NCBI GenBank assembly: GCA_020052615.1
Contig: JAGVOT010000012.1
Span: forward strand, 1-64,000
Origin: Nitrospirota bacterium
Lineage (GTDB): Bacteria; Nitrospirota; UBA9217
Direction of reading: 5' to 3'
Length of the DNA stretch: 64,000 nt
How positions within the stretch are numbered: the first letter of the stretch is position 1; the number at the start of each line of letters is the position of its first letter. Under the pieces are notes generated by a model, which did not search any database, was not told the DNA's origin, and was given only the letters and a program-made list of their open reading frames with translations. A program made the translations under genes and the position numbers. Of the stretch, positions 1,590 to 3,178 are shown piece after piece.

Positions 1590-1937
1590 CTAGGAATCAT
1601 CTGCTTGTATATGCTTTTCCAGAGGTGTGCCGACTATTTTACCATACTTCACGAACCAGAGCTTTTTCTCCGGGTTCCACCGTCCGCCTGCGGTCTTGGC
1701 TTGCGACCGCGCCAGCATGTCGAAAGCGTCGATGCGCAGGGGAACGAGCGTATCGGCTGTATACCGCGGCGGGGGAGGGGTCCATTCGGTCTTTTCCACG
1801 ACGAGTTCGACCGTTTTCAACCGCTGCCGCGACTCCCTGTCGTACTTGAAGCGAATGCATAGCAAGGCATCGCCGTACTTTTCCGTGAGCCTTTTGGTCC
1901 CGGGTTGACCCGGTTTCAGGATCAGCCGTGTTCTCAT
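1590..1937 (-). CDS. Conserved hypothetical 115-aa basic protein, possibly mobile-element associated
   Basis: Intact ORF MRTRLILKPGQPGTKRL...GGRWNPEKKLWFVKYGKIVGTPLEKHI; lies next to structured repeats. Confidence 0.55.
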   Translation of the reverse strand: MRTRLILKPGQPGTKRLTEKYGDALLCIRFKYDRESRQRLKTVELVVEKTEWTPPPPRYTADTLVPLRIDAFDMLARSQAKTAGGRWNPEKKLWFVKYGKIVGTPLEKHIQADDS

Positions 1938-2015
1938 TCAGTTACCTGCGACAGTGGGGTCAGCTTATCATTGCAAATGATTTTTCTCAAGACGGAAATT
2001 CACGAACGTCAAAGA

Positions 2016-2054
2016 ACTTTTACCGCGAAGGCGCGAAGGACGCGAGGAGGGCAG
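2016..2054. repeat. Left inverted repeat of the GxxExxY unit
   Basis: ACTTTTACCGCGAAGGCGCGAAGGACGCGAGGAGGGCAG; pairs with 2476-2515. Confidence 0.8.
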
Positions 2055-2081
2055 CTAAAAACCAAAATGTTTTTCCGAACG

Positions 2082-2459
2082 TTACAGGTTGTTCACCATC
2101 CGCTTGATGCCGTCCTTCATGCGCGGGACATTCCAATTGAGGATAAAACCCAGTTTGCACTGCTTCATTTTAAGATAGGTCAGCAATTGAGCTTCATGTA
2201 TAGGCAGAAGCCGCTCCACGGTCTTATGCTCAATAATAATAGTGTTTGCAACGAGCATATCGATGCGATATCCAGCGTCAATGATGATCTCACCATATCT
2301 GATCGGCAGAACTACTTCGCATTCGATGCGCAGACCATCGTTTTTCAGATCATATTCCATGCACTTCTGATATGCAGATTCCAATAGTCCAGGCCCCAAA
2401 GCAGTATGCACTTTGATGGCAGTTGCCACGATCTTGCTTGCGATCTCTTCGATATCCAT
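2082..2459 (-). CDS. GxxExxY protein (PD-(D/E)XK-like superfamily)
   Basis: Motif GPGLLESAY near the N-terminus, conserved ..IDMLV..IIIEHKTVERLLPIHEAQLLTYLKM..LGFILNWNV; 125 aa. Confidence 0.9.
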   Translation of the reverse strand: MDIEEIASKIVATAIKVHTALGPGLLESAYQKCMEYDLKNDGLRIECEVVLPIRYGEIIIDAGYRIDMLVANTIIIEHKTVERLLPIHEAQLLTYLKMKQCKLGFILNWNVPRMKDGIKRMVNNL

Positions 2460-2475
2460 TGTTTTGCCCCTGATC

Positions 2476-2515
2476 CTGCCTTCCTCGCGTCCCTCGCGCC
2501 CTCGCGGTTCAAAGT
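2476..2515. repeat. Right inverted repeat of the GxxExxY unit
   Basis: Reverse complement ACTTTGAACCGCGAGGGCGCGAGGGACGCGAGGAAGGCAG; about 35 of 40 aligned columns identical to 2016-2054 by hand alignment. Confidence 0.8.
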
Positions 2516-2550
2516 TTTTGTTCTTTTCTCTTAAGTTTTGCGGTTCTATT

Positions 2551-3147
2551 CTATTTGTACTTCCTCACCACCGCCGTCACCACGCCTGCTACTTTCAGCT
2601 CGTTCTTGGGCTTGATGGGCTGGTACTTGGGATTGGCGGGGATGAGGGTGATGGTCTCGCCTCGTTTGCGGAGATACTTCATGGTCCACTCGCCGTCCAC
2701 CTGGGCAATGACGATGTCGCCGCTCTTGGGCGTTTGTCCCTTGTCCACGATGACCATGTCCCCAGGCAGGATGCCCGCGCCCGACATGGAATCGCCCGAT
2801 ACTTTCAACAGGAATGTCGCCTCGCGGTTCTGGATGAGGAGTTCGTCCAGGGAGAGGGTGTCGACCAGTTCCTCCTCGGCGGGAGAGGGGAAGCCCGCCT
2901 CGACGGTGCCCAGGACCCGGACGGAACCGGCCATGGCCAGGGGGATCAGCCTGCCTTTCTTGTCCTTTTCGACGATCTTCAGTTTTTCCAGCTTGGCGAT
3001 TAGCTTGAAGACGGCATTCTTGGAGCGCAGGCCGGTCATGTCGCCGATCTCGGAGTAACTCGGCATCCTGCCGCTGTTCTTGTAGAACTTCCTGATCTTG
3101 CCGACGCGCGAACTGATCGTTTCCCGTTTTTTAGTGATCCGTGGCAT
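2551..3147 (-). CDS. lexA: LexA-like SOS/S24-family repressor
   Basis: Start MPRITKKRETISSRVGKIRKFY. HTH region RMPSYSEIGDMTGLRSKNAVFKLI, VEAGFPSP cleavage-like site, SGDSMSGAGILPGDMVIV and catalytic-Lys region WTMKYLRK. Confidence 0.8.
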   Translation of the reverse strand: MPRITKKRETISSRVGKIRKFYKNSGRMPSYSEIGDMTGLRSKNAVFKLIAKLEKLKIVEKDKKGRLIPLAMAGSVRVLGTVEAGFPSPAEEELVDTLSLDELLIQNREATFLLKVSGDSMSGAGILPGDMVIVDKGQTPKSGDIVIAQVDGEWTMKYLRKRGETITLIPANPKYQPIKPKNELKVAGVVTAVVRKYK

Positions 3148-3158
3148 GGAGGCATTAT

Positions 3159-3178
3159 AAGTGAACGAACGTTCACTT
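3159..3178. promoter_or_regulatory. LexA-type operator (GAAC-N4-GTTC) upstream of lexA
   Basis: AAGTGAACGAACGTTCACTT: 8-bp arms AAGTGAAC/GTTCACTT around a 4-nt centre, 11 bp upstream of the lexA start codon. Confidence 0.8.

Follow-up and report, generated by a model that had tools for sequence, protein, structure and literature searches.

A GxxExxY nuclease-family gene between inverted arms of repeated 7-nt units, and related gene-less hairpins in bacterial intergenic DNA

The 500-bp segment that separates lexA from a DUF5710-like gene in the 64-kb stretch of Nitrospirota DNA analysed here (hereafter the window) is an insertion element, in which a GxxExxY gene is enclosed by inverted arms made of short repeated units. 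The best explanation of this element, to which we assign a probability of about 0.5, is a hairpin system with a GxxExxY mobiliser that works in the manner of REPIN/RAYT. The original prediction, a mobile cassette moved in cis or in trans by its nuclease-like product, holds as far as a discrete, insertable segment with terminal repeats tied to GxxExxY is concerned, whereas movement of the element by the protein is what we infer from the features described below.

The inverted repeats of about 40 bp proposed to bound the gene are real. A repeat search returned a single long inverted pair of 45 nt, 82% complementary and 421 nt apart, and the 39-40-nt arms delineated originally fall inside it (Table 1). 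Their reported distances to the gene, 16 bp to the start codon and 27 bp to the stop codon, are correct, and the internal repeat seen in each arm resolves into three 7-nt units at spacings of 8 and 9 (on the left, CGCGAAG-G-CGCGAAG-GA-CGCGAGG). The arm core CGCGARGGCGCGARGGACGCGAGGA occurs twice in the window, compared with a mean of 0.00 in shuffles, and a near-identical core pattern gives 21 matches genome-wide versus 0 for the reversed pattern; the inverted arms around the window gene are beyond chance expectation. The encoded protein matches TIGR04256 (E=1.3e-39; 135.1 bits, cut-off 35) and PF13366 PDDEXK_3 (E=1.1e-37; 129.3 bits, cut-off 22). A screen of the window for known RNA families matched just one tRNA and no rRNA. 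Positions 1504-1612, by the end of the DUF5710-like gene, contain further repeats, GAAACTATCTACAGGTATAT / GAAACTATCTACCCGTAGAT, together with a diverged copy.

Table 1. The GxxExxY element and its host flanks, in window coordinates.
Feature	Position	Strand	Details
GxxExxY gene	2082-2459	-	125 aa, PD-(D/E)XK; matches TIGR04256 and PF13366
Left arm	2010-2054	+	outer end 2010, inner end 2054; inverted-repeat search
Left-arm units	CGCGAAG 2024-2030; CGCGAAG 2032-2038; CGCGAGG 2041-2047		read from sequence
Right arm (inverted copy)	2476-2520	-	inverted-repeat search
Right-arm units	CGCGAGG 2500-2506; CGCGAGG 2492-2498; CGCGAGG 2483-2489	-	
lexA (host flank, outside element)	2551-3162	-	upstream of insertion; TIGR00498, E=5.2e-38
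DUF5710-like gene (host flank, outside element)	1590-1937	-	downstream of insertion; E=1.5e-5, just under cut-off

The link between arms and gene extends to relatives and to other phyla; homologues elsewhere do have such arms, whose absence the original prediction had named as adverse to it. GxxExxY occurs at eight loci in the genome that contains the window (G000; 3.99 Mb assembly, 135 contigs); a stop codon interrupts one of them and a frameshift another. Arm pairs flank all eight, and their units differ by locus: CGCGAAG in the window, CACAGAG at two loci, CACGAAT, CACAGAT/CACGGAT, CGCAAAG, ACAGGAT, and a weak CACGGA-like pair. GxxExxY is also present in each of the 13 other genomes of the family, in one to nine copies, many of them broken, and a homologue 82% identical over the protein is present in a Nitrospiraceae metagenome assembly. 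Across 16 related genomes, matching inverted arms (pair score of at least 13 within 230 bp) were found at 63 of 65 GxxExxY copies with at least 100 aa aligned, compared with 22 of 955 other ORFs drawn from 1.25 Mb, a contrast to which no p-value is attached because the loci are related by descent. Several of these 22 control ORFs adjoin other hairpins or are themselves a four-helix-bundle gene or Y1 transposases. In a small, non-random sample of other phyla, related arms or hairpins accompany GxxExxY of Bacteroides, Bernardetia, Treponema and three metagenomic loci (L199-L201). One of two Gemmatirosa copies has clear arms and the other a one-sided hairpin; a left arm of the window's own unit type is present in Sphingomonas, where the right arm was not found; repeats are weak or unclear in Persicobacter and Prevotella; and direct repeats flank the gene in Fusobacteria. 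L199-L201 are the arm-bearing members of seven IMG/VR loci, the phage-like loci L202-L205 being armless, and a search of phages returned no match.

Each arm comprises about three units with the skeleton C[AG]CNNA[GT], spaced 8-10 nt. The original picture of the arms had omitted that they form locus-specific matched pairs: the left and right arm of one locus share their unit, which varies from locus to locus. A deep split in the protein tree tracks both unit ending and spacing. In the lower half of the tree (33 rows) units end in AG and are spaced 8-9 nt, whereas in the upper half (32 rows) endings are mostly AT or AA and spacing is 9-10 nt. The AG ending was recorded at 32 of 32 lower-clade loci scored and AT or AA at 22 of 25 upper-clade loci scored; 10-nt spacing occurs at 19 of 32 upper-clade versus 0 of 33 lower-clade loci. 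Such agreement could arise by joint inheritance without recognition. At the orthologous C110 locus, identified by synteny, some genomes have the unit CGCAAAG where others have CGCAGAG, several units having changed together, which fits either selection for a match to a binding protein or inheritance of whole units with homogenisation.

The insertion is polymorphic among relatives. For lexA, relatives in 11 of 13 genomes served to read the spacer. The empty site envisaged originally does exist: in G002, which belongs to the same genus, the spacer is about 100 bp long, free of the element and followed directly by the DUF5710-like gene. In the window genome this place is taken by the CGCGAAG element, whereas G005 and G010 have GxxExxY of the CACGAAG clade, and G004 and G008 GxxExxY of the CGCAAAG clade; the elements in these four genomes thus belong to two other clades and have other arms than the window's. 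G009 has a truncated remnant, and toxin-antitoxin-like genes occupy the site in place of an element in G001, G003, G012 and G013. The lexA-downstream spacer (window 1938-2550; L208-L218) is a hotspot, occupied by three GxxExxY clades, by BrnT-type or other toxin-antitoxin genes, or empty. Three spacers of the nuo operon contain, depending on the genome, GxxExxY elements, gene-less hairpins of varied units, or neither; adjacent spacers within one nuo operon (L071, L081, L097) carry a different hairpin or GxxExxY element per genome. Several other GxxExxY copies keep one position across the family, as judged by synteny, a feature absent from the original picture, and movement of the gene is therefore occasional. 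Vertical inheritance, which the original prediction had set against mobility, describes these copies, yet the lexA site is empty in G002. In co-directional spacers, 38 GxxExxY genes are in sense and 4 in antisense orientation. As first noted for the window element, no target-site duplication is visible, either there or at the lexA and nuo sites, where the empty spacers are too diverged to define ends; the exact ends of the window element cannot be fixed because the relative's empty spacer is too diverged for alignment.

Gene-less hairpins, which the original picture did not include, are commoner than the gene-bearing form. A census of 862 kb of G000 and 393 kb of G001 yielded 43 of them in 1.25 Mb, 37 being intergenic by crude ORF calls, with densities biased because the contigs were partly chosen for containing matches. 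Most arms of this type lie away from GxxExxY genes, in such hairpins, and the condition named as adverse to the original prediction, arms mostly elsewhere with no positional link, applies in part; the positional link is nevertheless orderly. The hairpins occupy 22 co-directional, 7 convergent and 8 divergent contexts, against a baseline of 430/135/122. Three identical units make up 26 of 48 three-unit arms in the part of the window genome analysed, whereas 2.7 would be expected after unit reshuffling; both genomes together have 92 three-unit arms versus 5 in reversed sequence. The loops of gene-less hairpins are mostly unrelated. Nevertheless, the hairpins at C2:19844 and C2:23669 have 143 bp in common, a stretch that stops some 12 bp beyond the arms. 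A copy of 200 bp at C2:35281-35480 is found again, with 87% identity, at C113:66802-66999, where it lies within the loop of a hairpin of another unit type, CACGGAG. Both pairs are recent copies, and the C113 copy is a nested insertion. The hairpins, together with the arms around the window gene, constitute a large family of insertable elements, seemingly not described before, that is scattered through these bacterial genomes. A short repeat, CCGGACAAGCCGGAA, adjoins hairpins of varied unit types (G000: C2:35466, C113:66807, C110 and C76:153422; G001: C12 and C13).

The presence of gene-less copies partly tracks that of a cognate GxxExxY gene when unit counts per genome are taken among the matches listed. 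Matching gene-less arms are present in G008 and G013, which have CGCAGAG cognate genes, and in G001, G002 and G005, which have CGCAAAG cognate genes, a pattern that is suggestive. Correspondence is mixed in G000 and G003, as it is for CACAGAG/CACGGAG arms, and gene-less arms for which no cognate gene was found occur in G006 and G010. Y1 transposases are the usual REPIN enzymes, and the window genome encodes two of them; those inspected are flanked by GGGGACGTTGTTNCT, unlike the GxxExxY arms, and Y1/RAYT transposases were rejected as the cognate enzyme on account of this flank. The inverted GGGGACGTTGTTNCT flanks of the Y1 genes L032 (G000:C76:135618-137315) and L163 (G001:C13:9762-10841) represent a separate repeat system.

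The window protein has the GxGxxExxY motif and the PD-(D/E)XK catalytic residues, and G22, G24, E27, Y30, D67, E77, K79 and Q91 (window-protein numbering) are invariant among 22 sequences; the alignment has no invariant cysteine. A sequence search against solved structures gave no relatives. The AlphaFold2 model (pLDDT 96.8) finds its nearest folds in Cas4 and lambda exonuclease, with modest TM-scores of about 0.5 and E-values of 0.003 and up, so that the model points to a minimal Cas4/lambda-exonuclease-like nuclease and not an HuH transposase. Consistent with the Cas4-like fold, a published reverse-transcriptase survey mentions, in passing and beside a reverse transcriptase, a GxxExxY domain assigned by its own pipeline at a place that CRISPRone took for cas4 (PMC8934634). 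Intact GxxExxY genes are under purifying selection: of 15 pairs compared, nine were saturated at synonymous sites and one (dS 0.013) was too similar to inform, dN/dS was 0.03-0.08 in all four intact pairs (dS 0.2-1.2), and it rose to 0.18 in a pair with a frameshifted copy.

Collectively, these observations suggest that the GxxExxY enzyme recognises the repeats flanking its gene. The GxxExxY nuclease gene occupies the loop of a long hairpin, the arms of which are built of repeated short units; purifying selection maintains this resident gene between arms of its own type, and hairpins that have related arms but no gene are dispersed through intergenic DNA. In the mechanism that we propose, the protein would most likely bind the repeated units (3 + 3) of the arms cognate to it, probably as an oligomer and on hairpin DNA that is extruded or single-stranded, and cleave at or close to the arm ends. 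Hairpins, occasionally with the gene, would be copied or moved into intergenic spacers, with mobilisation in trans of those that lack the gene.

Other genes also reside in hairpins. In the same genomes, inverted arms scoring at least 13 flank 21 of 27 TIGR02436 four-helix-bundle genes, with a period of 7 in 18. The arms of these loci (L101-L130, in G000-G013) have a period of about 7 nt, with units such as CAGGGTT, GTAGACA, GACGCGG and GCATGGG, among others. As four-helix-bundle genes sit in like hairpins and encode no nuclease, hairpin architecture alone needs no nuclease, and it is mainly this parallel class that holds the mobiliser claim at the level given above. The loci L101-L130 are free-standing elements akin to 23S rRNA intervening sequences (IVS). 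One further hairpin, at G000:C113:114970-115468 (L012, L223), has CGCGAAGG arms of the window's type around a gene for a 132-aa protein that belongs to no Pfam family; its homologues in G002, G004 and G010 have no arms, and the idea of general cargo based on this protein was dropped on that account. In the widest reading, which we put forward tentatively and with some doubt, the elements would form a new class of hairpin mobility, comprising small Cas4-like GxxExxY nucleases in many bacterial phyla, each specific for its periodic 7-nt arm unit and mobilising its cognate hairpins, and a parallel four-helix-bundle class with arms of about 7-nt period; in both, the repeats may be read by an oligomer, the spacing of its subunits setting the period.

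Several alternatives to a GxxExxY mobiliser have to be considered. Another agent, be it host replication or template switching or a different enzyme, might spread the hairpins, small genes being cargo of the loops. The four-helix-bundle genes in analogous hairpins are in line with this, as are the gene-less copies lacking a cognate gene and the single hairpin around the unrelated 132-aa protein, whose homologues are armless as chance predicts. Nevertheless, a random passenger predicts neither the near-complete association with GxxExxY (63/65) nor the subfamily-specific unit and spacing, and purifying selection on a catalytic gene also speaks against it; we consider this explanation rather unlikely. 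Still less probable in our judgement is that the arms act at the RNA level, pairing in the transcript so that a nuclease of the host, RNase III for instance, cuts the stem and frees the GxxExxY cistron, which would make insertion into operons harmless, the protein serving another function. The sense bias in co-directional spacers and the location of elements within nuo, lexA and, in Sphingomonas, fab gene strings would follow, and there is a precedent in the S23p IVS, stem-loops around a small gene that are cleaved by RNase III (PMC4990558). However, homogeneous units at a fixed 8-10-nt spacing are left unexplained, as is the link between unit type and protein clade. Such RNA processing may operate alongside hairpin mobility.

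The hotspot downstream of lexA, which hosts BrnT-type and other toxin-antitoxin genes in other genomes, brings to mind an autoregulated selfish nuclease, comparable to a toxin-antitoxin or defence gene, for which the flanking repeated units could serve as operators. Against this stand the position of arms on both sides of the gene and the many gene-less hairpins at a distance from such genes, and we deem this explanation quite improbable. Even more so are ordinary bidirectional transcription terminators that flank GxxExxY genes by coincidence: although the hairpins are G+C-rich with T-rich ends, they also lie inside operons, control genes are without them, and the gene-less ones have no convergent-gene bias, the distribution of contexts relative to the baseline being what disfavours terminators. 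A hairpin system with a GxxExxY mobiliser therefore remains our preferred reading.

In the literature searched, which comprised few subscription papers and no bioRxiv preprints, we found neither a description of arms or hairpins of this kind nor a role assigned to the GxxExxY family, the name of which barely occurs there. The present results tie GxxExxY to common intergenic hairpins; they place these proteins in a genetic context, pair them with matched DNA sequences and propose a testable specificity code that consists of unit sequence and spacing. Should recognition be confirmed, the system would be REPIN-like while using an unrelated nuclease, and dozens of protein-DNA pairs would be ready for studying how sequence specificity changes.

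Among known systems, MITEs and foldback elements are non-autonomous and have inverted termini. The window element shares the terminal inverted repeats, and copies of the hairpins are nested in one another as in MITEs; the differences are the periodic sub-repeats of the arms, the lack of a visible target-site duplication and the lack of an identified transposase. Cas4 and lambda exonuclease, QxxxY-type PD-(D/E)XK enzymes, provide the nearest folds and share the D-ExK-Q motif, but GxxExxY proteins are about half the size, without conserved cysteines for an iron-sulphur cluster, and the window gene neighbours lexA and the DUF5710-like gene and no cas or recombinase genes. Rpn proteins (YhgA-like, PF04754) likewise belong to the PD-(D/E)XK group, are multicopy and have been connected with DNA mobility; for one paralogue, it has been suggested that insertions at the same place occurred independently (PMC5350276). 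They belong to another Pfam family, the window protein matching only PF13366; RpnA shows little sequence specificity, and the outline and abstract of that paper make no mention of arm repeats. The 23S rRNA IVS, described as a selfish element (PMC4990558), resembles the window element in its size of about 430-500 bp and in its plan, a long stem whose loop contains a small gene. It differs in its location within rRNA, in encoding the S23p four-helix-bundle protein, and in lacking the periodic-unit arms and the gene-less relatives throughout the genome that are seen here.

The nearest described system is REPIN/RAYT, with the same logic but a different enzyme and repeat design. In both, gene-less inverted-repeat hairpins populate extragenic space, a gene lies between repeats of its own type, distinct repeat flavours coexist per genome, the gene is often inherited in place, and clusters occur near it (PMC3116915); in REPIN/RAYT, the transposase and repeat co-evolve (PMC8266576). 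The enzyme linked to the repeats here is of the PD-(D/E)XK type (PDDEXK_3), whereas that of REPINs is the HuH (Y1) TnpA_REP. A REP, two of which as a doublet form the REPIN hairpin, is a short imperfect palindrome with a GTAG/CGTC tag, whereas single arms of the hairpins, read by eye, are direct 7-nt units in tandem with no internal palindrome or tag, and the GxxExxY gene occupies the loop between them.
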